Assembly: GCF_040807025.1 (NCBI RefSeq)
Contig: NC_090952.1
Span: 27,525,068 to 27,589,067, forward strand
Length of the DNA: 64,000 nucleotides
Direction of reading: 5' to 3'
Source: Struthio camelus
Taxonomy: Eukaryota > Chordata > Aves > Struthioniformes > Struthionidae
This document shows, piece by piece, positions 1-60,088 of this stretch. Both the position numbers and the translations under genes were made by a program. Every line of letters begins with the position of its first letter. Position 1 is the first letter of the stretch. The notes beneath the pieces were generated by a model. That model was not told where the DNA came from and did no database searches. It saw only the letters and a program-made list of their open reading frames with translations.

Positions 1-13432
<13,432 letters not shown>

Positions 13433-19100: not shown

Positions 19101-22100
19101 GCCCAGCTCTTACATGGTGGTGGAGGCCAGGTTGGTGTCCTCGTGCTTCAGCTTGCCGTCGAGAGCCAGGCCTCGCTTCTCGCGGTTGGCCGAGAGCATG
19201 GGCGTCACGGAGTAGGTTTTGGAGAAGGTGGAGTTGGCCGCCACGTTCTCGCTGCAGGGAGCGGAGGGGAGGCGCTGAGCACCGGCGCTGCGCCGGACCG
19301 GAGCACGTCGACGCAGCAGCACCCGGGCAAGGCAGGCGGCCACCTCCTTTGTACTTACTTGATCTCCTCAGCGCACACAGTCTTTGTGTATTTGTCCAGC
19401 GAATAGAGGACCACGTCTGTGATCTGGTCCACTGCAGAGAGACAAGATGGAGCAATGCTGGGTGCACGACAGATGCCGCGCGTTGCACGGGCGCACACCG
19501 ATGCACAATCCCCATCACCCCGGCGGCTAAAGAGGCAGCATCTCCCATCAGCAGGCTGGAAAGAAGATTCCTACAGGTCTTTCCCCACCGCTGGATTTAC
19601 CAGGGTAAATACTGAGTATATAACGTATCACATGGGCCAATGGTCTCGCAGTCTTGTTACCCCACTTCTCCCTCTTGATAACCCAACAGCTCTCAGCTGG
19701 ACATCAACAAGATGTCTGGGCTGCAGCTCCGACGCTGGCAGCGAGTTTCTCGTGCCCATCTGCGTCGGTCCGTGACAGTTCTGCCCCATGGACACGCCAC
19801 CCCAGGGCAGAGAGGGGGCCCGGATGTGCCCCTCCTGTCTGCTCTCACCTGAGATCTTAATTTTTTTCACTATCTTGCTGGTGGTGTTATTGATGTTGAC
19901 AGTCACATTGATGGGGTCTCCATGGTAGTAGATCTGCAGTCAGAAGAGACTCGGTTACACGACCGGCAAGCAGGGAATAGCCACGTTTTGGGTGTCCGAG
20001 CGATGCCTCGGTGCTGTGAGGGCAAGCAGCGTGGCGAGGAGGGAAGCAGCTCCCGGGACGCACCAAGAAACGGCAACCTTCAGATAGCGGAGGGTGCTGG
20101 GGGCTGGGGGAAATGCATCTATGCATCGCGCTCGAGCCCTTTCCCTTCCAAGGAGGCAAGAAAATCCCAGGTCCTGGGGAGAGGAGGAGGGCTGCAGCCA
20201 AACCGCAGAGCCCTCGAACCCTTGGGCTTGCAGGGCGCGCTGAGGAGGGGGTGCTGCACGGCGCGGGAATTCAAACACGGAAAGCAGTTCCCCGTTGGAG
20301 CTTTGGCTCCAGCCTAAGGTTGGAGCCCGGAGTCCGAGCGGTCCTGGCGAGTTACCGGCTGCGAAGGAGCTGCGAGGCAGAGCGATGCCCTGAGGGGCCC
20401 ATTGCGCAGGAGGAGCCCCCGGCCCCGAGGGGATGCAGAGAGGCCGGTGCACGCGCTGCGGCGGCAGCCTCTCCTTGCAGCGGTTGCTGGCCCCGGCGGT
20501 GGAGCTAGGGCGGACGGCGCCCGGCACCCACCTCCCTATCCAGCGAGGCTTCGAGGTGCAAGGGCTTGTCGGACATCATGAACTGCCGGGTGGTCTCCGA
20601 CTTTGGCGCGGGCCCCGTTTTCACCGGCGCAAACTGGATCTTTCGGATGACGAGCCGCACCGAGTTCCTGCAGGGATGAGCGCTGGTCACCCCTACGGAT
20701 GCAGCGGACCTGTCCCACCCCGCCGTCCCCCTGGACACTGAAAAGGGGACCGGCGCCCTTCCTGTGGTCAAAGACCGAATCGGAGCGTGCCAGAGGCTGG
20801 AAGCGGGGCCCTGGACCCGATCCCCGAGCCGGCCCCTGGCAAGCCGGCCCGCTGTTCGGCTGTAGGGGCACGGGGAAGGAGAGGGGTCCTCCGGAAATAC
20901 CTCTTGTGAATTTTCTCCTCCAGATTTTCAGCGCAAAATCCTTTGACCTCAAAGTCCACTCCGCAGGCCTGAGGCAAACACGTGTGGTTACAAAGCGGGA
21001 CGGGCTCCGAGTTCCCTGACGTTCAGGTTTATTCACCTCCTTTTCCCACCGCGTCACCACTTCTGCCGCCCCGGAGAACCCGGCTCCGGCTGGCCAACCC
21101 TCGCCCCGCAGGGCGCATCCCCGTGCGGGAGGCCACTCTCGGTTTTGGCACCACCGAACGGATCATCCCTCCCTCCACGGGCACGAGTCGAAGGTAGCCG
21201 CTCACCTTTCCGACATCGTCCGGTCCGGGCTGGAGGGTGACCGAGCAGGGCAGGTTGGTTGCAATCTGGGGAGAAAAGGGACGAGAGGAAGCTTTTGCCG
21301 AGCTCCCCAGCGTGACGCGGCCGAGCAGAGCGGTCGGCGCCCCGAAGGGGACAGCTCGGGGCCGCAGGGGTGCGTTGGCTCTGTCGGGCAGGCGAGGAGC
21401 ACGGCCCGAGGTCAGCCCCAGCCGCGCGGCCCCTACCTCGAACGTGAAGGGGTAGGCGTTCTCGCCCAGCTTCTTCAGCAGCTTCTCCTGCAAAGGAGTG
21501 TGGGTTTTGGGCACCTGGTCCGGCACCGGGGGGAAGATCTGAGTGGTCTGGACATAGATGTCCTTCCTGAAGGTCAACCCAATAACGTCGAGGTCATCCC
21601 GGCCATAGCGAAACGCGCACGTCAGCGTCACGTACACTGGTGTCGGTGCAGGGCGGATGGGAATCGAGGGAGCGGTGGGATTAGGGCAAGGAAAGGAGTA
21701 CGGGAAAATGAAAAGCACAGGGGAAAAGAAGAGAGGAAGGAAAGAAAAGATGTTAATGACTTCAGCATTAAAAGCAAAATCTTTGCGCAAACAGAAACAT
21801 AACTCCGTTATCTGGACCTAGATCTCAGGCACCAAGCAGAAAGTTGAGGACTCATCCCCTCTTTCTTCAAGGCACTGGTGGCTTCCAAGTCAGTGCCCAA
21901 GACAGAGGTGGAAGAGAGGCAAGAAGAAAGAGGCAGTTCTCCTCTCTGCGTGAGCAATCGTTGCCCCGAAGCGTGACAACCAGGAGATAACCCATTGCAA
22001 TTTTAGCATCTCCACAGTCCCAGGTTGCTTGTGGACTTTGCACCAGTTTTTAGCCCTTCCCATTATAAAAGAAGATTTTGTGTCTTAATACCTTTTCTGT

Positions 22101-23304
22101 CCTTTAGGTACTCTGGGTCAATCAAGCAGATGCCATCTGCAAACAAGCAAAGAAGGAGGGCAGGTAAGGCCGGTGTCCCTGCAGGAGGGAGCCTGCCAGG
22201 GAGCTGCAAGGAGGGGAATATCTTCCCAAAAATACAGTGCTTCTTAAAGGCACCAAAATCATCTGTACCCATCAGCTCTGCAGGTGACTTTGGGGAGCTG
22301 CCCATCAAAGAGCATTGATGCCTCCCAAAGGATCTCCACCAACAGTGCAACAGGTTTGTTTGGCAAAGTCCAGGCTTTGTCCCTTTCCCCAACACCTTCC
22401 TTTAAAGGTATTTGCAGGAAAATGGGATCTTTGCCCCTGCTCCTCTTGTTCCCAATGGGGAACAGAGGTAACTGGAGAACAGAGACACCAGCAGAGGAGC
22501 CAAGTCTCCGAAACCGCTCGCGGCCACATGCGTCCCAGCACCGGGCAGGCAGCGGCAGCACCTAGCGGGGACCTCTCTGGCCAGGGGAATGGCCTCGCTC
22601 ACCTACAGCTTCCACGGACTCCACGTGATCCACAAAATCTCTCTTCCCCAGGTAGATGGACAACTGGAGGCAGCACAGGGTGAAAAACAGGGAGAAACAA
22701 GGTTAGTGTTTGCCATCGAATTGGCAGAAATTTTCGAGCTCCAGTTTGCATCACGGAGCTTTTTAACACTGCGGTCATTCAGAGTGTCGGACCAGGCATC
22801 AGGTTTAAGGACTCGTGCAGGTCTTTTTAACTTCTGTCTTGAAAAGCAAGCCCTGCGGTGGCATTGCGACGGGGTAGAAGCCAGTCGAGAGAGCCCAGAG
22901 GGAAGGGAGACCTCCTGCGTCCCCTCCCGGAAGGGGGTCCCTGCGGCCCCGCTGCAAGCCCAGCAACAAGGCAGACACCCTGCGGACAGACCGGTCCGCG
23001 TCTGCCTTTTCATGCACGGACTCACCTTGCCATTGGGGCTGGTCTTCTTAAACACTCTGCAAAGGGAACAAACACAAAGGTGTTGGGAAAGCTCGAGGAG
23101 CGGCTGGGAGCAGCTCGGCTCCTTCCTGGGGCGCGTGGTTGGGGAGGGCTGGAGGGGACCCAGGAGGGGACGGGGGGCCCAGGCACCGGACCCGGCCGGG
23201 CTGGCGCACGAGGCAACGCGGTGCCTCCCTGCCGCGGGCTGCCGTGTCCCTCCCGTGCAGCGCGAGCAAGGACGGACGGACACCTACTTTGCTCCTTCGG
23301 CCAT
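16124..23304 (-). CDS. ARR3: Cone arrestin (arrestin-C), complete
   Basis: Sixteen coding exons join in phase to 394 codons: 23288-23304, 23026-23056, 22603-22663, 22092-22136, 21437-21636, 21206-21265, 20901-20968, 20532-20667, 19849-19933, 19359-19431, 19114-19251, 18736-18819, 18112-18135, 17885-17937, 17549-17558, 16124-16223. It starts [16 protein letters not shown], with the phosphate-sensing KK pair. The finger loop (YGRDDLDV, about residues 62-68), [13 protein letters not shown], the gate loop [14 protein letters not shown] (289-302) and the C-tail [13 protein letters not shown] are all present. The last residues, 378-394, are unusually acidic ([17 protein letters not shown]). ARR3 binds light-activated, phosphorylated cone opsins and ends signalling; that is known of the family. 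It matches ARR3 better than ARRB1 or ARRB2 at the start and in the C-tail. Confidence 0.95.
17549..17558 (-). other. ARR3: 10-nt coding microexon of ARR3
   Basis: The exon reads ATAAGCCAAG between a TCTGTAG-like acceptor (CTACAG) and GTAAGG donor. It joins the exon at 17885-17937, which leaves one base, to the last exon, which needs two. The result is [16 protein letters not shown]. Without it the frame of the acidic C-tail would be lost. A 10-nt exon at this place is known from visual arrestin genes. Confidence 0.85.
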
Positions 23305-24638: not shown

Positions 24639-25086
24639 TGATCTTCACGTGGGTTCTGCATATGGATCATGAAATCTGGCATCCTCCTCATCTGCAGGGT
24701 TTCTTGGGCGGTGGCAAGAGGAGGCGCAAAGCCTCCGCCGGCCCGGGAGCCTGGCAGTCAGGCGGGGGGCATTAAAAGCAGGAGGGAAGGGAAGAGCCGA
24801 GCTCCTCCGCTGCCTCCCAAGGCTCAGAGAAGAGCGAGTCGGAGACCTTTCCCGGCTCGGTGAAGCTCTCCTGCACTGCTAACGTGATACCTCTGTCCCT
24901 GCCCTCCCCGCTGACCCGTGAAAACCTTTCGGCCCGATGTTTCCCTCTTTCAGCCCCAAGCTGCCCTCCTTCCAGCCAGGAGCTCAGCGCCGACGTCCCT
25001 GCCCCGCCGCCCTTTACGCTGCGGCGGGTCGGCGGCCGGAGCCGGGAGAAGGGGGCAGCCCCGCGCGCGGCGCCGGCAGCTCGTAC

Positions 25087-25178
25087 CTGCGGGCCGGACC
25101 GGCAGCCTCCTCTTCCTCGCCGGCGCTGCCCTCCGTCGCCGGTCAGTGCGGCGGGCGCCCGCTCCTGCCGCTCTTATA
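25087..25178 (-). promoter_or_regulatory. ARR3: ARR3 core promoter and noncoding first exon
   Basis: A TATAAG box lies at 25173-25178 on the minus strand. A start about 30 bp later would give a short noncoding exon ending at 25087 before a GTACGA donor. The matching acceptor, CCCCGCAG, is followed by 33 bases of leader (23305-23337) and the ATG at 23304. Confidence 0.55.
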
Positions 25179-28100
25179 GCCCCGCGCAGGTCCCTCCCGC
25201 GGCCGGGCCCGCCGGCGGGGCTCTGCCGGCAGGTGCGCAGCGTGCGCGCGCGCCGCGGCAGAGGTATTTTCGGGCTGCAATCCTATTAGTTTATTAATTC
25301 GGGAGCCGCTTCATGAGTACGAGCGGGCTACGAGGGCGGTTCTGGCCGGGGCCCTGCGAAAGCAGATTACGGAGATCGGCAAAGCAGGCTTAGGAGCGAG
25401 GTGACGGTAATTGAGGTGGGCGCTCCGCTCTCGGCACCGCTCCGAGGGGGCTTGCGCATGGCTGCCGACTCACGCGGCGGCTCTCCGGGCCCGCGCGCCC
25501 CCCGGCCCACCCCGGCCACCAGCCCGTGTTATCCCTCCCGCGGGCACCTGCTAGCGGACAGATGGGAGGTGGCCTGGGACCTCCCCAACTCCTAAATGCG
25601 ACCCCGGAGCTCAGGGCCGGCAGAACCGGAGCGGCGGCCGCCGGGGCCGGGAAGGGCGGCCGCGGGGCTGGGAGCGCGCCGGAGGGAGGAGGCGCCCCGC
25701 GCCCAGGCGAGGGGCCGCAGGGGTCCCGCAAGGGCCGTCTCGCCCCCGGCCGCGGAGGTGGCGGCGGCTGGGGCAGAGCCCGCTGCCCGCCGAGGCGGGA
25801 CGGCGGCCGGCCTCTCCGCCCCGCGCCGTTTCGTAACGCCGAGGTTTGGCCTGGCCTGACCCGATTAGGGGGCGTTATTAATTCGGGGTCGGCTGCTGCA
25901 AATAGCAAACTCCTGGAAGCGCCGCGCGGCTTTGCCTGCCGGGAGGCCCGGGAGACCCCCGCCGCCTGCCCTGCTCGGCCGCAGCCGGCCCGGCGTCCTC
26001 CGTCCCCCCGGGGAGGCGCGGGAGCTCTCGCAGAGCCCTCGCCACCCGCGCGCCGACGCCTGCCAAACTCAGCGCAGCTGTGCCGCGAGCTGCGGCCGAA
26101 GCGGGGGGGGGGCTTTCGCTATCAGGACGCGTCGCCCGCAGCCGGGACTTGTGATCTCTTTAATTGCCCGCGGGAAAGCGGCTTAGTCTGCAGATTAGCG
26201 GGCGCTATTTCTGCCCAGGTCGGGGGGACACGTGCACTGCGACCTGGCGGTGGCGGGGCGGCGGGGGGGGTCCGCCCTGCCGCGGGGCTCGGGCGCCGGC
26301 GGATCGGGCTCGGTCTGCGTGGGACGAGCCTCATCCCGGCTGGCGGCTGCTGGTGAGACCGACCCTCGCCCCCCCCCCCGCCGCCCCCAAACCGGCCCCC
26401 GCGGGGGGACGCTGTAGCGGAGAGACGAGAGACGGCGTCTTCCTTTTTCCTGTTTCTTTCTGCAAGCGGCGAGAGGCTCCGGTCCACCCCTTTCGGCGGG
26501 GAATTACGGCAGCGCCGCTAAGCAGCAGCCAAGCCGGGCCGGCGGCGGCGGCGGGTCTCCGGCAGGACGGGGGTTTCCAGCCAGCAGGGTCCTCGCCAGG
26601 CCCAGGCGGGTTCGTGGCCGGCCGGGACGGGCGGCCGGCGAGGAGCTGGCGCCAGGCCAGCCTGCCGCGGTGCCGCTGCAGACGCCGAGGGATGCAAATG
26701 CAGAACCGCCGGCCCAAAATACACGAAACGGCCAAATTTCTCGGCACCCCCCCCACACACACCCCCCGCCCGAGCCCCGGGCCGCAGCTTCCTCCTGCCA
26801 CGGCGGAAAGCCCAGGTGGTGCCAGCCCAGGGGAAGGCCGGGACGGGGGCCGCGGCGCCGGCCCCAGCGCCCGCCCGGGGGCCTCCCGCTTGCTTTCGGC
26901 TCAGGGGCCAGCGCGGGCTGCAAAAAAAGCCGGTGCGGCTGGGTGCCCGGCGGGCACCGCGTCCCTCCCCGAGCGGGACTGGGCGCCGCCAAACCCGCTC
27001 GGCCCCCGGGGCAGCCGGCAGCAGATGGTGCCTGCTGCTCATCTGTAATTAACGGGCTGCAGCGTGCGGATAATCGCCCTAACGCGGCTGGAGCCCGCCG
27101 CCCGCTGCACCGGCCTGCCCAGCGCCCCCCCACCCCCAAAACCACCCGCTTATCGGTTGCGCCGCACCTGGCCGCGGCGTCACCCCGGCAGCTTCGTGCC
27201 GGGGCGGTTTGCAGCTCCCAGCGCTGCGGCCGGTTTCGGAGGCCCCCCCGGCTTTCCCCGGCCGTGCCCGGCACCCCCTCCCCAGCAGGAACGGCTGGCG
27301 AGGCACCGGCTCCGCTCTGGCCGAGCTGTTTCCTGCAGGCGAGGGGGGTGAATCAGGTCCCTTTGCTGGGCGCCGACCAGTTTTTAGCCAGAGTTTTTTA
27401 GCCCCATCCGAAATCGGGCTTTGCTCAGCGCCGGAGCACCCTTCCCGGCACCGGGAAAGGCCGACGGAGCAGGGGGGGGACACGGTGGCGGCTGCACCCG
27501 GCAGCCCCCTCGCTCCGCTGTGCAAACCGCCCCCCTGCCGGGGCCGGGTTGCAGCCCCCTGGTTGCACGGGTGACCCGCATCGCCCTCGGCCCCGGCTGG
27601 GCGGCTGCACCCGGGGGCTTTCGGAGCTGGGGGAGCAGCAGCGTCGCCGGTGCCGGCGGGGACGGGGACGGGGACCGGCCGCTCTCGGCTTTTGGCACCG
27701 CTGATGCTGCAAGGAGCGAGCCCCGCGCCGCCGGCGGAGCGGCCCTGGCCCCCGCGGCACCCACATGACTGCGCTGGCTTCCTCCGGGCGGCCGCCAGCC
27801 CGCGGGGCCGGGGAGGAGGAGCGAGGAGGCTGGTCCTGACAGCGGGGCCAGGAAAGTGCAGCGAAGGAGGAAGAGCGGCGGTGGGGAGCCCGGCGGGCCG
27901 AGCGGAGCAGGCCGAGCAGCCCGGCGGGGCCGGCGGGCGCCTGCAGCCTCGGGGCGGGCGAAGGGCGCCCGCACCCCGGCGGGGTCGGGGCGGCCGCGGC
28001 GGGGGAAGCAGCCGTCGGCCCGCGCATCCTCCCGGCTCCGCTCCGGCGGCTGCAGCCCGGGAGGGCCGGCCGCCCCGGTGCCGGGAGCCGGCGGGCGGCG

Positions 28101-28494
28101 GCACGAGCGAGGGAAGGTGAGTGCGCGCGTCGCCGGGAGCTGGGTGGCCCCGGCGGCACGCTGCCCTGGGGAAGGTCCGTTCGCTGATCCGCACCTCTTC
28201 CCCGCTCCGGACAGGCCGGGTGGATGGAGAGCATCCGCACCGGCGGCCGCTGCCAGCCAAGCCGCTGCCGCCCGCGCCCCTTCCCGCGTCCCCGGCCGGG
28301 CTCCCCGAGGATGCCACCGTCCCCGTGACGAGCCCGTCCGCGGCTGCTCGTCGCCCGCCGCCATCCGCTGGCGCCGGTGCCGCCGGGCCGCTCGCCTCTC
28401 GGCCCTCGTCCGCCCGCCGCCGCCGGAGCGCCGCCGAGCCGGACGCCGGGGCCCATGCTGGGCTGGGCCCGGCGGCCGCCTGCCGCTCGGGAGG
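25179..28494. promoter_or_regulatory. Divergent CpG-rich interval between ARR3 and the SHIP-like gene
   Basis: About 3.3 kb of extremely GC-rich sequence with frequent CpG separates two genes pointing away from each other. The part next to 28495 is the likely promoter and leader of the SHIP-like gene. AT-rich islets such as TTATTAATTCGGG occur near 25290 and 25876. Long open frames on both strands look compositional. No exon could be supported. Confidence 0.5.
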
Positions 28495-31400
28495 ATGGCG
28501 GCGGCCAGCTGGTACCACCGCGACATCAGCCGGGTGGTGGCTGAAGACCTGCTGGCCAAAGCGGGGAAGGACGGATGCTTCCTGGTGCGGGACAGCGAGT
28601 CCGTGTCCGGGGCGTACGCCCTGTGCCTGCTGTGAGTCCCTGTCCTTTCCCTCGTCCCTCTGCCCCGGCCCCGGCCGGCGCGCCGATCCCGCCGCTGTCA
28701 GGCGGGCCGGTGGCCGGGCCGCACGGAGCGGTCCTCCTCCGGGGAGAAGCAGGCGGCCGAGGCGGAGGGCGGCCTTCGGAGCAGCCCCCGGCCTCTCTGG
28801 CCCCGCTCCCGGCAGGACGAGCTCCCCGAGCAGCTCTCGGCTTGCTCGGCCCCCGGGGACAGAGGAGGCCGCCGGGAAGCGCCCGGCCCCGGGCACCCTC
28901 ACCGGCGGCCACGCGGGGCGGCGCCTCTCGCACGCTTGGAAGGATGCCACCCCCTTTCCTACGGTTCCCCTGGCCCGGCGCGCGGTGCAAATTGCAAACA
29001 CATGGCGCCGAGGAGCGCGGGAGGGTGCAGCGGACTTGTCCCCCCCCCCCACCGCCGCCGTCCCCGGCAGCCTCCCGGCCTCGCTGGGCTCCAGCCCGTG
29101 CCCTGATTCAGGGCTCAGCCCCGCGCCGCCGCCGCCGGGACTGCACAGCTCCGCCAGAGCCCTCGGGGCTCCGCGCCGGCGCCTGGCCCGGACGCCGCGT
29201 GCCGGGATGGCCCCCCCCTTCCCGGGGGCCCAGCCCGCGTGGAGCGGCGCACCGGCACCCGCTGAGACCCCCCCTGCTCGTGGCAGGTTCCAGAGGCACG
29301 TGCACACCTACCGCATCGTCCCCGATGACGAGGGGCTGCTCTCCGTCCAGGTGGGTGGAGCGGGGGCCGCGGCGCCGCGCCGGCTGCTCCCGCCGCCACG
29401 CCGGCGGAGCTCCCCCCCCCCGGGGGGGGGCAGCTCGTGAGCGGGATTTGGGGTCCGGCAGGAAGCAGGTGCGGACAGGCTGGTGCCTTTGCCGCCGCCA
29501 GCGTCGGGGCGCGCCGGCCGAGGTGGCGTTCGCGCTTCCATGCACGCCGGAGCCGCAAGCGAGCGCTGCGGTTTTCTTTTTGCATAAGGCAGCTTCAGCG
29601 CGCGGCGGCACAGGATGTGAACGCGCTGCACGGACCCTTTTTGCAGCACGGCCTCGCCGAGCTTCCCGACGCGCCGAGCTGAGCGCGGCTGCAGCCTGGC
29701 AGCACCAGCTCTCCGGCAGCGCCGCGCTCCCGCAGCCCGCTGCCGCCTTTAAGCCCACGGCTTTACCCCCGCTGCCTTCGCGTCTGGCGCGGCTGCAATA
29801 AACTGCTCGCCCGTGTTTGTGCCCCGCGGCGAGAGCACGAGCCCCTCCTGGCGCCCCGGTGTCAGGGCACGATGAGGAGCGGGGCCGGGCGCGGAGCGCC
29901 GGGAGCAGGGGGCGGGAAAGGCCGCGGCAATGCCCTCTCCGCTTCCTCCCCCAGACCATCCAGGGCATCCAGGCCAAGTGCTTCCGCACCCTCACCGACC
30001 TGGTCGGCGCCTACCAGCAGCCCAACAACGGCCTGGTGACGCCCCTGCTCTACCCCGTGCACCGGGCGCGGGAGGCGGCCGACGAGGACTCGGGTGCGCA
30101 GGGGCCGTGGGACGGCGGCGGCCGGCGAGCTGGAGCAGGAGCGGGCGGGCGGGCGGGCGAGCCGTGCCGCCGTCCCTCTGAGCCGGTGCCCGTCTGCCGC
30201 AGATGGGGACGACGGCCGGGGGGGCGCGCCGGCCAGCACCGGCCCCCCCGGCGGGGCCGCCCCGGGCGCCTGGGCCGGCGCTCCGACCGGCCGGACCCAC
30301 ATCTCGCAGCAGCTGCACCTGCGGCTGCAGGAGCAGGTCCACAGCAGGTAACGTGTGCCCGGCCCGGCTGCCGTTGCCCCCCCGGAGGCTGGCGGAGACG
30401 CCGCCGGGGTGGGACTCTGCATCGAGCGCCGGGGCGCAGGCAGCGCTGGCGAGAAAAGGCTCCCGCGCTCTCAGCCGTCTCTGGCCGTTGCAGCCCAGCC
30501 AGCGACTTCATGGGCTTCATGGCCGAGTACCTCACCCACCACCTGCAGCTGGACCTGGAGGCGCTGCGCAACGGGAACCTGCAGCTGCGCCACCTCAGCA
30601 CCGCGCTCGTCACGGCCTGCCGCGGGCTGCACAGGCGAGTGGGCACGGCAGCGGCGGCGCCGGGAGGCCGACGGGCCTGGCCCGCCTCCCTCTGCCGAGC
30701 GGGAGATGCCGGCGGCCCGCGCAGCCCGCGCGACGCCTCTCCGCTGCGCGGCCGAGGGGGGCTGCCCGGCGGCTCCTTCCGCCGTCCTCCCTCTCACGCT
30801 TCCGCTCGCCTCCCTGCAGCGAGATCGACTTCACGTTGGCTGGTTTGGAGACGTTGGCCAAGGTGTTCGACCCTCCCGCATCCCCCCGCAGCCCCACGAG
30901 GGAGCAGGTGAGCCCCCGGGCGGGAGCGCAGCCGGCCCCGAGCCCGGCGCTGGGGACGGCAGATGTCTCGCCACGCATGGGCGAGCGCAGCTGCTCGGCG
31001 GGGACGGCAGGGAGCTGCTCGGGGCAGTTTCGGTGCCTGCGTGCACCCGGAAAGGCGCTGCGTGCACGGCCTGCAGGGACGCGGGTCCCGGCACGGTGCT
31101 CTGTCGGTGGTGGAGGGGGCCCGGGAGGACTGGGAATTCGTTTCTGCATCCAGTCCACGATGCCGCAGGAGGGGGAGCCAATTCCCTGCCTGGCCCCAGG
31201 ACCCCACGTGCTGCAGCACGTCCTGCCCCTGTGGTGGGACCGGCCGTGGAGAAACCCACCAGGCAGAGCCAACTGTGCCGCTGCGAAAGCCTCCGCCCTC
31301 CCAGCGAGTGTCCATCTCTCTCCCCAGGGTCTCCTGACCAGTGATCCGGACCTGGAGTTGCTCCTCAGCAAGATATCCACTGTCAACCATCTTCTCTCTT

Positions 31401-34400
31401 CCCTGGAGAAAAAGGTGCCTGGCCTCATTGCCGGAGTGGGCAAGGGGCACTGCAGGGCACCTGGGAGCGTGTGGATCGGGCAGTGGGACAGAAATCAGGA
31501 TTTGGGATGCTAAGTCATTTTCTGACCCTATCAGAGGGGTTAAGGTCCCTCTCCCGCCGCCAAGCACATCACCAGCTCCCCGCTTTGCGTCCATCTCTCT
31601 CCGCAGGTGCTGAGGTCGCTGCAGGAGACGGTGTCCAAGCACAACCTGGCACTGCCCAGTGTGGCCGCGGCCCCCCAGCCCGCCACCAAGCCCCTGGCCG
31701 TGCAGAGCTTCGAGGTGAGGCCGGGCTGGGGCAAACTGCAGCCATGGGGGGCAGATGGAGCAGACTGCAGAGGCAGGAGCCAGTCCTCCCAGCACGGGGT
31801 GGGCGCTGACCCCTGTGAGCATGTCCCCGTGCTGCAGGTGAAGGTGGGCAAGTCGCAGCGAGCAGTCCTCACGGTGGACGTGGAGTCAGGCACAGTGGCC
31901 ATCACCAAGAAGGGCAGTGGGACTCCAGAAGAGATCATCCCTCAGGACAAAAGTAAGGACCCACCATCTCCCCGCTGGTCCCCAGGGGACAGTGCAGGAC
32001 CAGGGGCTCCCTCTGCAAGGGCAGCAAGGGATCTCCCTGGGACACCACTTTGGGGATAGGCCTGATGCCGAGGTGATGGCCTCCATCCTCTCTGGAGACT
32101 GTGGGGACAGTGGGAGTGGGCCGTATGTGCCCCCAGCCCTGCACAGCCGAGGCTGGGGGTGCCGGACGGGCGGCGGGACCTGCCGTTGCTCCGCTCACAC
32201 CCATGGGCATCCAGTCTTGCAGCTGATTAAATACCAGAGCGTGCAGAGCAAGGTGAGGCTGGTGTATGACCGGGACCAGCACAAGAGCCTGAGCAGAGAC
32301 TTTGTCTTCCCAAGTGCACGGGTAAGAGGACCCTGCCACGTCCTGAGGTTAATAACTTTCTGCATGTCCCAGGCTCCCCTGCCTGGAAGTTAACATGCCC
32401 GCAGCCTGGCTGCAGCCCTGTGGACCTGGCCATCAACACCTCTTGCGGTGCCATGTTCCTCAAAGCCCTGGGTCCTTTGCTGGGGCCCTGAGGACACCTG
32501 TTTCCTCCTGCAGAAGCGTGAGGCCTTTTGCCAGCTGCTCCAACTCATGAAGATCCAGCACTCCAACCTGGATGAGCCTGACCTCATCTCGGTGTACGTC
32601 GGGACATGGAACATGGGTAAGGGGCCGGGAAATGCTCACATCATGCAGGGAGGCCTTCATGGCTGGTTGTGCCTCCAGGGACAGCTTTGGAAGGGGAGGC
32701 TTGCAGCAGCTGCCCTGGGATGTCTAGGGTTGGAGCTGCTCCTTGGTGGGACGAGGAGGCTGGAGAAAGCTCGGATTTGGCCTTCTCTGGGTTTGTCAGT
32801 CCCATCATGATCCACTTGCCTTGTGGTTGTGTTGAGTAAATAGATGAGCTGGGATACTTGGAGGGTTTTAGAGAGGAGCAGTAAATCTGAGCACGGGTCT
32901 GGGCTTTGCATGGGTGGACCTTGTGGTTGACATGATGCTTTCCATCCCCCATGGGGCCTTGACACACCCCTGGGGGCTGAGAGGGGCTCAGGGAACCAGC
33001 CTTGGAGGCAGCCTGGTGCTGTCGTCCTACTTGGGCGCTTGGTGACTGCCATCCCTTCTCCCCTCTCCCCACAGGCAGCACCCCGCCGCCCCGGTCCCTT
33101 GCCTCCTGGCTGACATCACGGGGCCTGGGGCGCACTCAGGACGAGACCACAGCCTGCATCCCCCATGACATCTATGTGATCGGCACCCAGGAGAACTCCT
33201 TGGGTGATCGCGAGTGGGTGGAGTTCCTACGAGCATCTCTGAAGACGCTGATGGCCATAGACTACCGAGTGGTAATGGCTTGGGCCAAAGCTTGAGGAAG
33301 ATCCGTCTTGGGGTCTTAGCTGCCCTCTCCGCCTTTGCCAGGGGGATGCCCACTTGATAAAAAGCCTGAAGACTTCCACAAACAGTTTCAGGAAGCTGAT
33401 TACCCACCAGTAATCGAGCTGGGGTTCTCACACCTAAACCCAATGTCCTCTTCACTTTTCTGCTTCTTCACCCTGTCCTGCTCATTGTGGGTAGCTGGTG
33501 GGCACGGGCAGGAGCTGGGCACCCCAGCTCACCCCCGTCTCCAGGGGCCATGCAGGCTGGCTCACCCCTATCTCCCGCAGGTCGCCCTGCAGTGCCTCTG
33601 GAGTATCAAGATGGTCGTGCTGGTGAAACCAGAGCACGAGCGGCGCATCAGTCACGTGAACACATCCAGTGTGAAGACAGGCATTGCCAACACCCTTGGT
33701 GCGGGCCGGGAAGGGGCTGCGGGTCCTCTTGGTGGGATAGGGCAGGGTGGGCTGTTGCAGTCAGGGATGCCCTGAGCCAGGGTGGCAGCCTGGGGGCATG
33801 GTGCAGGGACTGCCACGTGCCATCTCTGCCATGCTGCAAGAGAGTGTTGTCTCCTCCGGCTGCTCAGCTTCCCGTGTGTCCCCACAGGTAACAAGGGAGC
33901 TGTGGGCATCTCCTTCCTTTTCAATGGGACATCCTTCGGGTTTGTGAACTGCCACCTGGCCTCAGGGAGTGAGAAGACCCACAGGTGACAGAGGGACACA
34001 GGAGGATGGGACGCACCACAGGGTGGTGGGACAAACCCACCTGGGGTGGGCTGGGTGTAGCAATGCCTAATGGTCCAGGTAGGTCCTTGTTCAGATGGGT
34101 CACTTAGGCATCCCGGAAAGTTCCTGATGGGCCACAAAGGAAACAGCAATAAAACACAAAGCCAAAAAAACAGCCGGTAACAAAGGATATCCTTCCTCAT
34201 AGCTTTTTCTTTCCTCTATGTTATAGCAAACTTACACATGGCTTCTCCTCCCACGTTTCCTGCTTACTCCTTGCAAGTGCAGCTGCAAGGGAGCTGGGTT
34301 TGCACCCCGAGCCCTTTGGAGGGAGAGAAGTTTCAGTCCCTGAATGTCAGACATTGGGTTCAGGGCTGCTAGTGCCCGTCCCCATCCTGTGCATGCTGCC

Positions 34401-37400
34401 CCAACCATGCAGAGCCCAGCGGGCCAGGGACTGGGGGTGGCTGGTGGTGGGGCTGGCCCCGGGGGCAGGACTGGCGGTGGGGCTGTCTCACCTGCTCTGC
34501 TCCCATCCCCCTGTGCGGTGCAGGAGGAACCAGAACTACAGCGATATCCTGCGCTCGCTCGTGCTGGGCGACAAGCGGCTCAGTGCCTTTGACCTCACCT
34601 TGCGTTTCACCCACCTCTTTTGGTTTGGGGACCTCAACTACCGCCTCAACATGGACGTGCAGGTAGGAGCGAGGCCCCGGTAGCTCTGCAGCCCCGGGAG
34701 TGCTGCAGGGACCGGGGCCGTGCTGGAGTTGTCACTGGGGCAGGGTGACACCAACGGGGGGGGCCCTGTCCCAGTTCCAAAGAAAGCAGGGGTGAAGGGG
34801 AGCCCGGGGCATGTGCTCAGGGCCCCCGGCTGGGGCTGGTACTGAGGAGGAGCCGAGGAGGGTCCTGGATGCTCATCATGATGCTGAAGCAAAGGGAGGG
34901 ATGAAGAAGAGCCCACATGCTCACAAACTCTTTCTTCCTCCCTGCCCAGAACATCCTAGCCCATGTAACCAAGAGGGAGTTTGAAGCCCTCCTGGCTGTG
35001 GACCAGCTCACCCTGGAGCGGGAGAAGAACAAGGTCTTCCTACGATTCAGTGAGTGCTGGCACAAGGTGCCAAAAACATGAGGGGCCCCGAACGTGCACC
35101 AAGGAAAGCCCCCCTGGGGCAGCACATCTGGGTGGTGAGGGAGGCTGGCCTCGGCCCCGGCACTTGTGTGCCCATGGACATGGCTATGCCACTCCCAGCA
35201 TGGGACCTGGGCTGGGGGTGCTGCTCGGAAGAGCCCCAGCAGGATGAGGAGTGTGGCAGATGATGTCCCCAGCCTTGTTCCAGCCGTGGGGACATTCAGG
35301 GACACTGGCCCTGGCTCAGCTCTGCCTCTTGGTTCCCAGGTGAGGGTGACATCTCCTTCCCTCCCACCTATCGGTATGAACGGGGCTCCCGGGACAACTA
35401 CATCTGGCAGAAGTTCAAGACCACAGGGGTGAGTTCCCAGACTCTCATGCTGATGCCAGGGCTCCAGAGGTCCAGCCCCATGCCGGGGGAATGGGGACAG
35501 CAGCTGGGGATGATGACAGGCAGGCTGCATGGCGAGCAGAGAGCCCGCTTCATGCTCAGCCCTCACACCTCTGCCAGCCCTTCCCCTCTGCCAAAGAAGG
35601 TTTGTCAGGAGGAAAATATCTTTTAGGGGTCCTCTATCCACTCCCTTGGTGGGGAACAAGAGAGAAAGCTTCTGCGGTGGGAAAAGCACTGGGTTGGTGG
35701 GAGAAAGCGGCCAGATCTGAGGACTGCGGAAGCAGCACCTACACTGACTGTATTTCCTGTTCCCAGATGAGGATCAACGTCCCCTCGTGGTGTGACCGTA
35801 TCCTGTGGAAGTCGCACCCAGAGACCCATCTGGTCTGTAACTCGTATGGTGAGTGAAGTGCCCCAGAGCCCTGCTGAGGGTTTGGGGGCAGCCGAGCGTC
35901 AGCGGGGCTGCCGGTGGTGCTGGGGTTCAGTGGCCATCACCCAGCTCCCCCTTCTTGCATTTCAGGCTGCACCGATGACATCGTGACCAGCGACCACTCT
36001 CCGGTCTTTGCCACCTTTGAGGTGGGAGTGACATCGCAGTTTGTGCCCAAGAAGGGTAAGGGTGAGGGTGATGGTGAGGGTGACAGTGATGGTGAGGGTG
36101 AGGGTGGAGGTGAAGGTAAGGGTGAGGGAGCACTCTCTCTGGGAGGGTGATTGCCTTGGGAGCAATCAGGCCCAGGGACAGCTCGCAGCCCTGCTTCTTC
36201 CTGGCTTTGTCCACAAACCTGCCGGGCCCTGGGGCAAGCCCTGAGCGTGGTGCTCGGCCAGCACGTGCTAAGCTCCTGGTGCCCGCCTGCAGCGCCCGGC
36301 TCCAGCCCTGAGTCCCTGGCCTGCATCGAGTGGGAGAGCATCGAGGTGATTGTGAAAACTGCCAGCCGCAGCAAGTGCTACATCGAGTTTCACTCCTACT
36401 GCCTGGAGGGTGAGCCAGCCCCCGGGGGCTGGGGGAGGACCTCGGGATGCAAGGGGCATCTGTGCACCCATGCACCGTGAGCACGGGCACGGTGCTCCCC
36501 CGTGGGCCAGGGCAGCGAGGGGTGCAGGGGTGGCTGCGCTCTGCCACTTGGCATCGGGGCAGCCGGGCACCCCGGGGCAATGAACAGAGGCACCGAGCTT
36601 GACGCTGGGTTAAGGATGGAGCCCAAGACAGGTTGGTGGGCAGCAGGGTCAGCAGCGGGAGGGAGCTGCTTCTCCTCATGCTCTCTTGCCGGCAGAGCCC
36701 CAGCGGAGCGGGGAGAACACGTCCCAGAGCTGTGACATCCCCGGCTTCCTCAAGCTCAGCTGGTCGGCTAAACACTTGCCCGTGGTGAGCACCGGGGAGA
36801 GGGGGTCCAGGCTGCAGCAGCAGGGCAGAGGCGGGTGGACGAGGCACAAGCTGCCCCTTCACGCCGGCTCTGCGCCAGCCCCTGAGCATCTCCCTCCCTA
36901 TCCCTCCCGCCTGGCTCGGCACCAGCGCTCTGCTCCAAGGGGAGCGCCGGGGCTGTCATCACCCCCAAGGCCGAAGTGACCCTTGTACCAGCCCACTCCC
37001 CAACACCTGCTCTCCCCATGCACAGCTGCACCCCATCCTCCCGGACCTGGAGTACCTGGGGGACCAGCACTTGCTGCTCAGCATCAAGGGCGTGGAGAGC
37101 TGCGAGTCATACGGTGCGTCCCTGCGCCAGGCTCCGCACGGCAGGTTGCTGCGGGTGACCCGCAGACACCTTCGGGGTGGGGGCTAGCGGGGTCTGGGGA
37201 GGGGGTCTGCAGAGAGCTACAGGTTGCAAGCTCAGAGCTGCAGGAGGTCTGCCCCCAGCACAGCACTGTCTCCTGTGCCAGGGGCCAGAGAGACCTCGGT
37301 GGCCTGTATGAGGCCGTGACCACAGGCCTGGCCCCTAAAGGAAGCATGGATGGTGTCAAGAACAGCCTTTGCATGCAATTTTTGGGAAACAGTCTCTCCT

Positions 37401-39533
37401 AGCCTGTGGGCCTGCTGGGTGTGAGGTTTTGCAGCTGGAATTTGGCAAGAAGGACCCCGACACCCACCCTCTCTAGCTCAGCACCCGCTCCAGGTTGCTG
37501 CTGGAAGAGGGTCCCGGGACGGGAGACGGAGCTGCCCTGCTCCCGGCCTGCTAACATCTCCATGTGCCGTGCATGCAGGTGAGTGCTGCATTGCAATGAG
37601 GTCCATGATCGGCAGCATGGCCCAGCAGTTTGAGACGTTCCTCTTCCACCGTGGCGAGGAGACGGGCTCCATGCGTGGCTGGATGAAGGTCCGAGTCCCC
37701 AAGGACAGGCGCAGCACCCGCGAGAGGCTCTACGGTAACGCTGCCGCACTCTTTGGCTGCTCCCGCTTGGCCTGGGAGGGGTTGAGGGTGGCGTGGCTGA
37801 GCGCTCCCCATGCCCAGCGCCGCTCCCCCCTTCCCCGGCAGCCAGCAGAGGCCGTGCATGGACTGACTAGTCCTCCGGGCACCCTGTGCTCCTGTTGAAA
37901 GAGGACTCAAATATCTGCATGCAGCTCTTTAGCTGTGCCCTTCCTGCCCCGAATTTCTTGCAAGCGAGCCTTCACCAGCCTTGTTCTTTGCAGAGTGGAT
38001 CAGCTTCGAGGAGGAGGATGCCGAAGCGGCCGCCGATGTCCCGACGTGCTCCAAGCCGCCCGTGCACCGTGTCAGGTACCTCCGGCAGAGCACAGTCCTG
38101 CCGCCAGCCCCCCAGCCACCAGCGGCACTAAGGCCGCCTCGATCGCTGTGTGTTGCAGGAGCCGGCCCCACAGCATCCCGGACTTGGCCAGCAGCTACAC
38201 CAACCCGGCCTACTTCATATTCGAGGGGTTGCCCAACACGTGTGTCCTGGCGCCCAGCGCCTCCGAAGCCCTCCATCGCCCCCGCAGCGAGAGGCAGACG
38301 GAGGGCCAGCGGCGCTGCAGCCCGGCAGGCGCCCCGGCCCCATCAGCCGTGGAGGAAGAGCCGTGGGGTGGCTGGCCCTGCAGCGTGGTGGTGGCCCCCG
38401 GCCGCGGATGCCAGCTCAGCCCCCTCCCCACCGGCAGGCAGAGGAGGCCCAAATCGGCCGTTCTGGAGAGGGACCTGCCGGCGGTGGTAGTGGAGGGTGA
38501 CTGCTCCCTGACAGCGTTGCACATGGCGAGGTGTCTCAGCGAGCTGGACCGGGTGCCCCCCGAGGAGGGCAGCCGCCTCAACGGTGGCACGGCCGGCGGC
38601 CCCAAGGCGCAGCTGCGCCAGACCCGCAGCGCCCTGGAGCCGCTGCCGCGGCGCTGCCCCGAGGTGCTGGGGCCCGCGCAGGACACCCAGTGGCATGGTC
38701 AGGCCAAGGAGGTACCGCCTGGCTGCGCGCAGCGCTGCAAGGATCAGGGAGGGCAGGGGAGCTCATCTTGGTGACCTGCTTTTGGACATGAGGCCACCGG
38801 CAAAGCCAGGGCGCTGGCCTCCTGGGGTTGCTCTGCCCTGCCGGAGCAGCAGGATAGGGAGGGAAGGCGGAGGAGCAGCAGTGCCCGGGTCCTGCTTCAT
38901 ACGGATTGGGGAAATGAGGGTGGCCACGTCGTGGTCCTCTGTCGTGACACTGCTGGAGCATGTCCTTGTTCTTCTTTCCCTAGTGGCCCTGCGACAGAGG
39001 TGACCGCTCCCGCAGCATCGGCGTGTGGCTCAGTCACCTTGGCTTGGAGCAATACAAGGACGGGCTGTATGAAAATGGCTGGGATGACCTTGAGTTCTTC
39101 AGGTATCCCCCAAGTCCTGGCACTCATAGAGGGGCACAGGACAGGTGCAATCGGTCCCCAAGTGCCAAAGCAGTAGTGGAGCAGGTCAGGCCAGTTCCTG
39201 TGTCCCCTAGGTCCCTGGTGAGCCACAAGCCTGGAGGGGGAGCAAAGGGGATGTATGCAGAATAGAGTGCAGACGAGGAGGCCATTAACTGATCAAGTCC
39301 CCAATTCCTTCTGGATCCCCTTGGCTTTTGAGGATGCTGTTTCCCTGCATCGTCTTGCTTGCTTCCCCACAGTTGCTTTCTCTCTCACCCCACTGTACAG
39401 AGACATCACTGAGCAGGACCTGCTGGAAGCTGGGGTGCTGAGTCCTACTCACCGGAAGCTCATTCAAGCCAAGCTCTGCGAGAGCACCACTGAAAGTCTG
39501 CAGCAGAGACCCCATCTGAAACCAAACGCCTAG
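28495..39533 (+). CDS. INPPL1-like: SHIP2-like inositol polyphosphate 5-phosphatase, complete
   Basis: Twenty-seven coding exons join in phase to 1160 codons: 28495-28631, 29287-29350, 29955-30093, 30203-30347, 30494-30634, 30820-30907, 31328-31414, 31607-31714, 31838-31952, 32215-32321, 32514-32616, 33075-33271, 33581-33698, 33888-33984, 34524-34662, 34950-35049, 35340-35428, 35767-35848, 35966-36055, 36293-36409, 36696-36784, 37026-37113, 37579-37734, 37994-38075, 38159-38711, 38984-39102, 39401-39533. It has an SH2 domain (SWYHRDIS, FLVRDSES, residues 5-100) and a 5-phosphatase domain with GTWNMG (407-412), TQEN, GNKGAVG, FWFGDLNYR (581-589), PSWCDRILW (664-672) and SDHSPVF (694-700). A C2-like part, an NPAY site (908-911) and a C-terminal SAM domain (about 1084-1150) follow. 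The SAM domain marks it as SHIP2-type, since SHIP1 (INPP5D) lacks one. Human SHIP2 has about 1258 residues; most of the shortfall lies before the SAM domain. The family removes the 5-phosphate of PI(3,4,5)P3 at the membrane. Catalytic residues look intact. Confidence 0.92.
30635..30640 (+). other. INPPL1-like: GC-type 5' splice site (AG|GCGAGT)
   Basis: The exon at 30494-30634 must join the exon at 30820 to give GLHSEIDFTLAGL, which aligns with the same place in SHIP2. The only fitting donor is GCGAGT; there is no GT at or beside the junction. GC-AG introns are a known minor class of the major spliceosome. Confidence 0.7.
36056..36129 (+). repeat. Hexamer array of donor-like GGTGAG/GGTAAG units
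   Basis: Twelve hexamers in a row begin at the donor of the exon ending at 36055. Five read GGTGAG and two GGTAAG; the rest differ by one or two bases. The period of six keeps the reading frame, so any downstream unit could serve as a donor without a frameshift. Reading through gives Gly-Glu, Gly-Lys and Gly-Asp pairs and then a stop near 36148. Confidence 0.85.
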
Positions 39534-40619: not shown

Positions 40620-43400
40620 GCCGCGGGCCGTGCACTGCCTGGTCTTTGGTGGGGGGGGGTCGCCATACCGTGATAGCTGGCCCGGTGTCGCGGCGGGGAC
40701 ACGCAGCTCCTTCCCCGCCCCGAGACGCGCCAGCTCCTGCTGCCCAGCCCCAAGCCCCCGTGCGTCCCCGCGCTGCCTCCTGCCCGGGCCTGGGCGACGG
40801 CGGCCGCTCGCGGGCATCCCGGCGCTGGCAGCCCTGCTTCCTCCTAGGGCCGGGCCGCTTTGGCGCGGGGGCTGCGGGCTGAGGACCTTCCCTGCGGCTC
40901 GGCGGTAAAAATCTGTGTTCGTGCACCGGCCGCCCCTCGCCCCGATCCACGTCCGCGCGAAGACATCGAACCCGCGGCGCGCCGGGGCGCCAGCGCCGGA
41001 CGGTCCCCGTTTTTGGGGACACTATGCCCGGGCTGGCCTCAAGGTGGCAGTGGCCACCTTTGTCCCCAGGAGAGCCCTGTAGGGCCTGGCCCTGGTGCAA
41101 GCGGGGGTCACCCCCAGGGCTGGGGGCAGCAAGGCAGGAGCCGGCCCGTCCCCGTGCCTGTCCCCGTCCCCATGCCCGTGCTGTGCCCGTGCCGGCGCAG
41201 CCCCGGCCCCGCTGCCGGGGCAGGACGACGTGGCCTCACGGGGGGCAGGACGTGCCGCCTGTCCGGCCTCGGCACGGGGGTCCGAGGCCGGCGGCGAGGT
41301 GCGAGGGCGGCGGCGGGCAGGAGGGCGGCCCCGGCCTCACGGCGGCCATGGCCCCGCGCCCCACGGCCCCTCCGCCGGGGTGGGTGGGTGGGGGCCGCAC
41401 CGGCCCTGCAGCCGGCGGGGGGAATGGCCGAGGCGGGAAGGGGGCCGAGGCGGGAAGGGGGCCGAGGACGGCGGGTGGCGAGGGAAGCTGGCGCCGGTGG
41501 CCTCGGGCGCCTGCCCCCGCCTCCGCCCGCCTCCGGCCCTGCCTCTCCCTGGCACTTTGCTCCCCGAGCCGGGTGCCGGCTCCGCGCGGCCCTGCACAGC
41601 GGCAGCGGCACCGCTCGACGGCCCCTGCCCCGGCCCAGCATGGCCCCCGGCGCCGCCGGGCACCGGCCCTGCCCGCGGCCGCCCCGCACCTGAGCGCGCC
41701 CCGTCCGGGCCGGCACCGGAGGTGAGGCGGCGGCGGTGACGGCGCGGGGCACCGGCCCAAGCGAGGCCTTGGGCCCGAGGGAGGCGGGCGGGTGTCGGGG
41801 GGAACGACGCGCGCGCGCGGGCGACCCCTCCTCGCCGTCCCTCGCGGCAGCGAGGCCGCCCCAGCCCGGCCCGCGCATCCTCCCCAGCGCTGCCCTCTTC
41901 TCGGCCTTCCTCCCTCCCCAGGCACCTGCCTCCTCCTCCTCCTGCCCCTCTCCCTCGCTCCCAGGGCACGTCCCCTCCAGAGGTGACTCTGCCTCCGCTA
42001 GGTCCGTGCGCTCCGCCGAGGAGGTGCAGGGGCCGGGGAAACCTGGCCCAAAAAAGCTCCCAAAACCCCATGTCACCTCCTCCCTCCCCACTGGGAAATG
42101 GCGTCACCTCGGAGAGGATGAACCTGCCAGCTCCGGGCAGCACAGAAAGCGCCCGGCCCCGCCAGCCCCCAGCTCCGCCGGCCTCCCCGGGGGGAAAGCG
42201 CCCGGCCCCCGCCAGCCCCCGGCTCCGCCGGCCTCCCTGGGGGGAAAGCGCCCGGCCCCCGCCAGCCCCCAGCTCCGCCGGCCTCCCCGGGGGGAAAGCG
42301 CCCGGCCCCCGCCAGCCCCCGGCTCCGCCGGCCTCCCCGGGGGGAAAGCGCCCGGCCCCGCCAGCCCCCGGCTCCGCCGGCCTCCCCGGAGGAAAAGCGC
42401 CCGGCCCCCGCCAGCCCCCGGCTCCGCCGGCCTCCCCGGGGGGAAAGCGCCCGGCCCTGCCAGCCCCCGGCTCCGCCGGCCTCCCCGGGGGGAAAGCTCC
42501 CGGCCCCCGCCAGCCCCCGGCTCCGCCGGCCTCCCCGGGGGGAAAGCTCCCGGCCCCCGCCAGCCCCCGGCTCCGCCGGCCTCCCCGGGGGGAAAGCGCC
42601 CGGCCCTGCCAGCCCCCGGCTCCGCCGGCCTCCCCGGGGGGAAAGCTCCCGGCCCCCGCCAGCCCCCGGCTCCGCCGGCCTCCCCGGCCAGGAAGCGTCA
42701 GCTCTGGGAGCAGCGACTTGGAGTTTGCGTTTCGGCTGCAGCTGCTCTGGCAGCCAAAGGAAAAAGATTAAAAAAGAAATTAGGTCGCGCTCCCCTTGTG
42801 CCAGGGCTTTGGCTGTGCAAACCACGTGGCGATTAGGGGAAAGGGTCCTTGCGCAGGACGTTTTGCATAATTTCCCCTTGTTTTGCAATATCCGAGCGTT
42901 TGGGCGAGAAGAAAAGCCCTGTGTTTTCCTCCTTTCCAGCGGCAGCCAGGTTTCGGGCTCGCCCTGCCCAGTTACCCCTCAGCGGCTCAGCCGTCCCGCT
43001 CTGCGATTTGCTCTGCTGTCAGCAGCTCCCGAAGCGCCGCCGCTCGCCCCTGCAGAGCGGGGCCCGGCCTCGCCGCCCCGGGCGCCGGCCCTTCCCCGCC
43101 GCGACGCCCCGCCAGCGTCCCGTCCTCTTCCCGGGAGGCAGGACCTTTGGCTCCCGAGCGGAGCCCGGCGTCTGCCCTGCCAGGCTCATTCATTTTATTG
43201 GTGCCTTTCCACCGCCTACGTAAATTGGACACGCAGGAGGCCTGGGCACCGCTGCGGCAGGCTGGGGTCAGGTCGAGCCGCGCCGTGTCCTTTTCCTCCA
43301 GGGCTCTTTATCTCCTTGTCCAGCTCCCGTGGCTGCTGCGCCCGGCCAGGAGACGGCTCAGCTGCGCTCGCTCCCTCCCGCTAAAGTCCACGCTGGAGAG
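40620..43400. promoter_or_regulatory. CpG-rich stretch upstream of P2RY4
   Basis: High CpG density begins after the SHIP-like 3' end and fades by about 43.4 kb. It may hold a promoter and a noncoding first exon of P2RY4: a CGGAG|GTGAGG donor candidate lies at 41721/41722, and the P2RY4 coding exon begins with an acceptor at 48824. No protein exon with recognisable content was found. Confidence 0.4.
42150..42690. repeat. 50-bp minisatellite, about 11 copies
   Basis: Near-identical units of 50 bp contain GGGGAAAGCGCCCGGCCCCC, GCCAGCCCCCGGCTCCGCCG and GCCTCCCCGG; phase is easily seen at 42191, 42241 and 42291. Variants differ by GCGC versus GCTC and by single C deletions. The minus strand is G-run rich and could form quadruplexes. 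It makes a 366-codon Pro-rich frame that I reject as coding. Confidence 0.95.

Positions 43401-50119: not shown

Positions 50120-50120
<1 letters not shown>

Positions 50121-50174
<54 letters not shown>
50121..50174 (+). repeat. AGGCTC hexamer array in the P2RY4 3' UTR
   Basis: Nine perfect tandem copies of AGGCTC, preceded by a CCCTGT-type hexamer run from about 50095. It lies 180 bases after the P2RY4 stop. The antisense frame reads as an (EP)n peptide, which is a repeat artefact. Confidence 0.95.
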
Positions 50175-59940: not shown

Positions 59941-60088
59941 CCAAAACACTTTTGTTCGCCACTTCGGGAAGATTGAAGGCCACCACTACACCTGGCTGCA
60001 TAAGATCTGTTTGCCAAGGTGAACACTGCAGTGCAAGCTGTAGCGTTCAAAAGCCTTGACTGAAAATACTCCCTGAAACAGACCACCT
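59941..60088 (+). repeat. Unidentified duplicated element, copy B
   Basis: This is the partner of 52473-52638, in the same orientation and about 7.5 kb away. Its 3' half can fold into a long hairpin: TCTGTTT (60006-60012) pairs with AAACAGA (60076-60082), and inside it CAAGG and TGAAC pair with CCTTG and GTTCA. ATAAGA just before the hairpin fits an H-box pattern, but a proper ACA tail is missing or lies inside the stem. It lies beyond the IGBP1 polyadenylation signal. Confidence 0.8.

Follow-up and report, generated by a model that had tools for sequence, protein, structure and literature searches.

A third SHIP-type gene between ARR3 and P2RY4 in the ostrich, very likely a genome-doubling partner of INPPL1 and INPP5D

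Results

The ostrich (Struthio camelus) sequence considered here is a window of 64,000 nucleotides (the whole stretch of DNA that was analysed, C11:27525068-27589067), and on its plus strand, at positions 28495-39533, lies a gene for a SHIP-type 5-phosphatase, referred to as the third SHIP gene. The first-pass annotation had placed this gene between those for cone arrestin (ARR3) and the receptor P2RY4, and bit scores favor these names on both sides: the partial 13-exon ARR3 model (18112-23304, minus strand) scores 614.5 bits against cone arrestin vs. 553 against beta-arrestin-1, and P2RY4 (48841-49941, plus strand) scores 463.8 bits against P2Y4 vs. 375.3 against P2Y2. The third SHIP gene starts ∼5 kb from the start of ARR3 and runs in the opposite direction, and a CpG-rich stretch (25001-31000, GC 0.74-0.78, CpG observed/expected 0.82-0.99) spans its start and the gap to the ARR3 start. 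The gene order of the window is presumably that of human Xq13.1, where we know of no gene between P2RY4 and ARR3.

Rebuilding of the third SHIP gene from its splice sites gave 27 coding exons with 3483 nucleotides, which comprise 1160 codons and a stop. The start context is GGGAGGATGG, 25 of the 26 introns are of the GT-AG type and intron 5 is GC-AG with its donor at 30635, while the GC content at codon positions 1, 2 and 3 is 0.61, 0.46 and 0.85, respectively. Across the locus the density of stops is 0.0189 per codon, at which a random frame of 1160 codons would contain about 22, and the splice-site model has no internal stop. The open frame is not due to chance, and a pseudogene was rejected given the absence of internal stops and splice sites that are usable throughout.

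The domain order is that of a SHIP-type enzyme, with all Pfam domains above cut-off. Exons 1-3 (28495-30093) encode an N-terminal SH2 domain (residues 6-87) with the FLVR arginine (FLVR at residue 29), exons 8-10 (31607-32321) encode C2_SHIP1-2_first (residues 298-373), termed PH-related or PH-like in papers, exons 11-19 (32514-36055) encode the 5-phosphatase (Exo_endo_phos2, residues 407-701), exons 20-23 (36293-37734) encode a C2 domain (C2_SHIP1-2_2nd, residues 741-848), and exons 26-27 (39008-39470) encode a SAM domain (residues 1086-1140; SAM_1, 1e-10 in Pfam). The two C2 domains flanking the phosphatase (PF24150 and PF24147) are SHIP-specific. These plus-strand features also include an NPAY motif (residues 908-911, 38202-38213) and, as a pattern, a UIM-like core (residues 1013-1023, 38517-38549). 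The best PDB match of the phosphatase-C2 part is a SHIP2 chain (775.7 bits), and that of the SAM domain is the SAM domain of SHIP2. Among the PDB references, 6dlg and 2mk2 are chains that we take to be human, and the SHIP1 SH2 chain 9vjl differs from the SHIP1 SH2 chain 2ysx and may come from another mammal. The reference 5okm is human SHIP2, according to an excerpt of the paper from which the roles of SHIP2 residues were also taken for mapping (PMC5550278).

Of 33 functional residues of SHIP2, 27 are kept in the third SHIP protein, and the catalytic and substrate residues are identical at all nine positions checked. The arginine R682 of SHIP2, which contacts the 3-phosphate, is also an arginine in the third SHIP protein, while SHIP1 has a lysine. 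Because all nine checked residues are kept, the third SHIP protein is likely to be a working phosphatidylinositol 3,4,5-trisphosphate (PIP3) 5-phosphatase, as judged from its sequence. In a relative-rate test over SH2 and phosphatase-C2, with SHIP1 as the outgroup and evaluated by chi-square, 49 unique changes were counted in the third SHIP protein vs. 32 in SHIP2 (p = 0.059), which is no clear acceleration, and the constraint on the third SHIP protein therefore appears to be similar to that on SHIP2. The earlier description of a complete 27-exon, 1160-codon gene with SH2, 5-phosphatase, NPAY and SAM is thus borne out by the splice-site model, Pfam and residue mapping, as is the statement that it bears no sign of decay, its frame being open, its splice sites usable and the nine checked residues intact.

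The C-terminal tail is where the third SHIP protein departs from its relatives. It contains no PxxP in 230 amino acids vs. 16 in the 291 amino acids of the ostrich INPPL1 tail, and PXXP motifs are described for both SHIP1 and SHIP2 in the available part of a review (PMC11121230). The proline-rich region with PXXP that characterizes the SHIP family is absent, so that by architecture the third SHIP protein falls short of a full SHIP, and its homology to the family rests on the remaining shared domains and the tree. The NPAY motif and the UIM-like core are in register with those of ostrich INPPL1, where LHMARCLSELD of the third SHIP protein aligns with LQMAKTLSEVD. The tail without PxxP is a new anatomical point of the third SHIP member. 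SH3 docking is probably absent from the protein, and SH3 adaptors would not be expected to dock as they do on SHIP1 and SHIP2 because the predicted tail has no PxxP.

The genome searched comprises 1.4519 Gb in 262 contigs and gave 28 SHIP matches, of which 12 are on the contig of the window (C11), nine on C1 and six on C9, together with a single weak match on C3 (44% over 57 residues). On C37, the contig of the fourth arrestin, the search matched no SHIP sequence at E <= 1e-5, and the SHIP copy of this block is missing or beyond recognition. A scan with a 97-amino-acid piece found no SHIP relative in bacterial/archaeal and viral contigs. Ostrich INPPL1 is located on C1 near 224.03 Mb on the minus strand, where 26 of the 27 exons were matched and no counterpart of exon 4 was found, and its model carries SH2, phosphatase, C2, NPAY, a proline-rich tail, the UIM-like core and SAM. 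It is flanked by PHOX2A-type homeobox exons (C1 224,015,781 and 224,017,127) and folate-receptor exons (224,054,321-224,056,751), identified by motifs that we take to be those of PHOX2A and the folate receptors. This is the neighborhood reported for vertebrate INPPL1, in that the ancestral folate receptor generally adjoins ANAPC15 and/or INPPL1 and members of the group stay in the folate-receptor cluster in fish, snakes, alligators, birds, turtles, frogs and mammals, according to excerpts of one study (PMC4807442), and stickleback inppl1a is listed with stard10, clpb, phox2a and a folate receptor in part of another (PMC5462536). The separate INPPL1 whose presence elsewhere in the genome had been set as a check therefore exists, between the PHOX2A-type and folate-receptor exons of C1.

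Ostrich INPP5D is on C9 near 6.13 Mb, ∼43 kb from the S-arrestin gene (SAG), and the best PDB matches of this arrestin gene are to S-arrestin (452 vs. 388 bits for beta-arrestin-1). The INPP5D model consists of 20 of 27 exons found by script, the first and last of which score 18 each and are not trusted, and exon 21 added by hand, with most of the SH2 domain and the tail outside the model. The human positions of the three loci are presumably Xq13.1 for the ARR3-P2RY4 block, 11q13 for INPPL1 and 2q37 for INPP5D.

Sequence identities over the phosphatase-C2 part separate the three ostrich genes. Ostrich INPPL1 is identical to human SHIP2 at 419 of 459 positions (91.3%) and ostrich INPP5D to human SHIP1 at 395 of 453 (87.2%), while the third SHIP protein is identical at 328 of 459 positions (71.5%) to ostrich INPPL1 and to human SHIP2 alike, at 255 of 453 (56.3%) to ostrich INPP5D and at 253 of 453 (55.8%) to human SHIP1. 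The third SHIP protein is not the SHIP2 ortholog, because an ostrich ortholog should be near 91% and the third SHIP protein is at 71.5%. The SH2 domain gives 68 of 99 identities between the third SHIP protein and ostrich INPPL1 vs. 86 of 99 between ostrich INPPL1 and human SHIP2. The unrooted trees contained five sequences (the third SHIP protein, ostrich INPPL1, human SHIP2, ostrich INPP5D and human SHIP1), and the best maximum likelihood tree was (third SHIP, (ostrich INPPL1, human SHIP2), (ostrich INPP5D, human SHIP1)), with a FastTree support of 0.994 for the split. Approximately unbiased (AU) tests were run with the LG, JTT and WAG models with gamma on two data sets (six runs), each with two alternative topologies. 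The third SHIP protein outside INPPL1 plus SHIP2 was best in all six, and its pairing with human SHIP2 and its pairing with ostrich INPPL1 were each rejected in five. The tree of the phosphatase domain that had been proposed as a check thus places the third SHIP protein outside ostrich INPPL1 and human SHIP2, and it follows from the tree and the AU tests that third SHIP and INPPL1 very probably separated before human and ostrich did. The third SHIP protein does not belong to the INPPL1 ortholog group, as its grouping with mammalian INPPL1 is rejected in five of the six AU runs and its gene does not have the PHOX2A/folate-receptor neighborhood.

Four arrestin loci are present in the genome, on C11 (in the window), on C1 at 223.71 Mb (∼307 kb from INPPL1), on C9 at 6.18 Mb and on C37 at 0.65 Mb, of which the C1 and C37 genes are called ARRB1 and ARRB2 on the basis of identity patterns and elimination only. 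SHIP genes adjoin three of the four, and this, with none matched on C37, fits a single SHIP copy in each block and a single loss. Among the 112 of 291 candidates scored, P2RY4 has its nearest relative on C1 at 222.66 Mb (57%), and a further P2Y gene lies at 222.71 Mb (44%). Arrestin and P2Y relatives are common to the blocks, as is expected of a genome-doubling paralogon. A paralogon of arrestins has been published for gar, with an earlier tandem duplication considered possible, and INPP genes are not mentioned in the main text of that paper (PMC5795056).

Discussion

We consider it very likely that the third SHIP gene is a third SHIP paralog of the SHIP2 type (“SHIP3”) that originated with the whole-genome doublings of vertebrates as a partner of INPPL1 and INPP5D and has been kept in the ostrich. 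The first-pass annotation had proposed just such an ancient partner of INPPL1, and the proposal is supported by the three loci, the tree and the arrestin/P2Y blocks. The doublings would have generated an ARR3/P2RY4 block with SHIP3, a beta-arrestin-1-type/P2RY2-type block with INPPL1 and an SAG block with INPP5D. Like SHIP2, the third SHIP protein has the order SH2, PH-related, 5-phosphatase, C2, NPAY and SAM, an arginine at the R682 site and a UIM-like core in register, but it is 71.5% identical to human SHIP2 where ostrich INPPL1 is 91.3% identical, its tail has no PxxP where that of ostrich INPPL1 has 16, and it is encoded at a different locus. With SHIP1 it shares SH2, 5-phosphatase and C2, but the identities are only 55.8% to human SHIP1 and 56.3% to ostrich INPP5D, and it has a SAM domain, which SHIP1 lacks according to the available part of a review (PMC11121230). 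Its locus resembles the arrestin paralogon (SAG, ARR3, ARRB1 and ARRB2) in lying in the same duplicated blocks, with SHIP at three of the four arrestin loci, and differs from it in that the contig of the fourth lacks a SHIP match at E <= 1e-5.

Mammals are not known to have a third SHIP gene, judging by human Xq13.1, and its loss in mammals is presumed. The SHIP family is described as having two members in an excerpt of PMC5550278, and if humans lack the gene, as this description implies, then the third SHIP was lost on the way to humans.

Four other explanations of this gene have to be considered. A relocation of INPPL1 itself within the ostrich lineage would agree with a domain order that is the same as that of SHIP2 and with SHIP2 as the best PDB match, but this has practically no probability given the separate INPPL1 on C1, which is 91.3% identical to human SHIP2 and lies between PHOX2A-type and folate-receptor exons. 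A moved INPPL1 was rejected on the basis of this second, syntenic INPPL1 in the same genome, and the third SHIP gene is not a relocated INPPL1. A later duplicate of INPPL1 in the bird/reptile line, inserted near ARR3, is very improbable. One of the six AU runs fails to reject the pairing with ostrich INPPL1 that it requires (p = 0.066, LG+G4, concatenated set), but the pairing is rejected in the other five, the third SHIP protein is only 71.5% identical to an ostrich INPPL1 that is itself 91.3% identical to human SHIP2, and the locus is within a block that is paralogous to the INPPL1 block by its arrestin and P2Y relatives. The late duplicate was rejected on the identities (71.5% vs. 91.3%) together with the five AU runs.

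It is improbable, though less so than a late duplicate, that the gene is an old paralog but not a doubling partner as such, having come from a segmental or local duplication that preceded the doublings or fell between them. Trees of five sequences cannot date such an event, and the same caveat has been raised for the arrestins in the available part of PMC5795056, but genome doubling would most simply give what is seen in three blocks, a single SHIP gene beside a single arrestin. Of comparably low probability is a gene that looks intact but would be silent or very recently dying. The tail without PxxP could be read in this way, but such a gene would have to be reconciled with 1160 open codons, 26 usable introns, nine of nine catalytic residues and no significant increase in rate relative to SHIP2.

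Several observations weigh against the third SHIP gene being a SHIP2-type partner from the doublings, or against parts of that interpretation. Two of the 12 AU tests leave an alternative unrejected (p = 0.054 and 0.066). The unrooted five-sequence tree is compatible with the third SHIP as the sister of INPPL1 or as an earlier branch, and, taken alone, also with a duplication that slightly predates or postdates the doublings. Dating by a clock from the distances was set aside as ambiguous. Within the scored candidates given above, the relatives of P2RY4 ranked second and third (45-46%) map to 31.6 and 33.2 Mb of C9, >25 Mb from INPP5D and outside the blocks. The label “SHIP2-type” is based on SAM, R682 and the UIM-like core, and of these the UIM-like core is a pattern only that is also carried by 4.4% of tail shuffles, with no UIM match to the third SHIP protein in Pfam. 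Six of the 33 functional SHIP2 residues differ (D613N, Y697H, Y770H, V838C, S827G and D829E), among which D613, a docking site of SHIP2, is an asparagine, Y770H and V838C match the residue of SHIP1, and D829E retains the charge. The first-pass annotation had also suggested a GC-rich setting as a possible reason for the absence of the gene from older bird assemblies. This fits exons 1-6, where 1-kb bins have a GC of 0.75-0.78, and not most of the phosphatase exons, where the bins at 32-36 kb are at ∼0.59-0.60, and GC richness alone cannot hide the whole gene. The ostrich INPPL1 locus has a GC of 0.736 over 40 kb (C1:224010001-224050000), which exceeds that of most of the third SHIP gene, and INPPL1 itself could be the gene that was hidden in older bird assemblies.

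If the third SHIP protein functions as its residues predict, it would be a Mg2+-dependent PI(3,4,5)P3 5-phosphatase that, like SHIP2, converts PIP3 to PI(3,4)P2. It would be recruited to phosphotyrosine receptors through SH2, to PTB partners through NPAY and to SAM partners through SAM, and the tail would be uncoupled from SH3 adaptors. A more speculative proposal, which we regard as unlikely, is that birds, and perhaps other non-mammals, use an SH3-uncoupled third SHIP with its own tissue role, perhaps by co-expression in cones where it would tune PIP3, and that this was lost in mammals. Co-expression in cones is conceivable because the gene starts ∼5 kb from the cone arrestin start in the opposite direction, with the CpG-rich stretch in between.

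Among the matches listed, no report of a third SHIP gene was found in the open-access PMC literature, and the terms looked for are absent from the main text of a paper on missing genes in birds (PMC12954441). Automated annotation of such a gene may already exist, because a newt transcript carries the name of an Anolis “5-phosphatase 2-like” protein in part of another study (PMC3628982). SHIP is treated as a two-member family in the available part of a review (PMC11121230), and phenotypes and inhibitors are currently read against such a family. In species that keep the third member, this gene, which humans seem not to have, may buffer results on SHIP2 or PIP3 turnover. The absence of SH3-docking motifs amounts to a natural experiment on which roles of SHIP2 need SH3 partners, and the third SHIP supplies a missing piece of the much-studied arrestin paralogon.

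Additional observations

The fourth arrestin gene is located at C37:645247-649672 and is ARRB2 by elimination. A possible loss of ARRB2 in birds has been argued, according to an excerpt of PMC5501109, and ARRB2 may survive in the ostrich genome. Among the same 112 of 291 scored candidates, P2Y-type matches on C40 and C41 occur in collinear pairs (42.93/62.45, 42.89/62.42, 42.84/62.37 and 56.37/75.91 Mb), and these near-equal G protein-coupled receptor matches suggest a little-differentiated Z/W pair.

The window contains further genes on its minus strand. RAB6-type GTPase exons (348-11388) are found beyond ARR3, presumably at the position of RAB41, and one exon of this gene occurs twice (3486-3593 and 7456-7563, minus strand), the copies being 85% identical over 108 bp. 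Their I/A vs. V/T differences are, we assume, those of the mutually exclusive RAB6A′ and RAB6A exons, and given these isoform residues the exon pair would be older than the split of RAB6A and RAB41. Beyond P2RY4 are a DGAT2/AWAT-type acyltransferase exon in an open frame (54429-54986), with a Pfam DAGAT match on an 84-amino-acid piece, and then IGBP1-type (TAP42) exons (60586-63484). Outside the window, beyond the RAB6-type gene, START exons of the STARD10 type, named by eye, are present at C11:27516157-27518597 on the minus strand. In stickleback, stard10 is a neighbor of inppl1a according to part of PMC5462536, and the STARD10-type gene may be another partner of the block that is missing from the human X.

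Rfam gave no match at the gathering threshold in the window, and the CR1 end pattern is at chance level (one match vs. 1.22 expected). The repeats include two GC-rich minisatellites, at 13692-14353 (period 60/80) and at 42145-42687 (period 50, 95% matches, ∼11 copies), a perfect CAGGCT hexamer array of 9.2 copies directly after P2RY4 (50120-50174), and an interspersed pair of a 166-bp repeat on the same strand (52473-52638 and 59941-60088, 80% identical).

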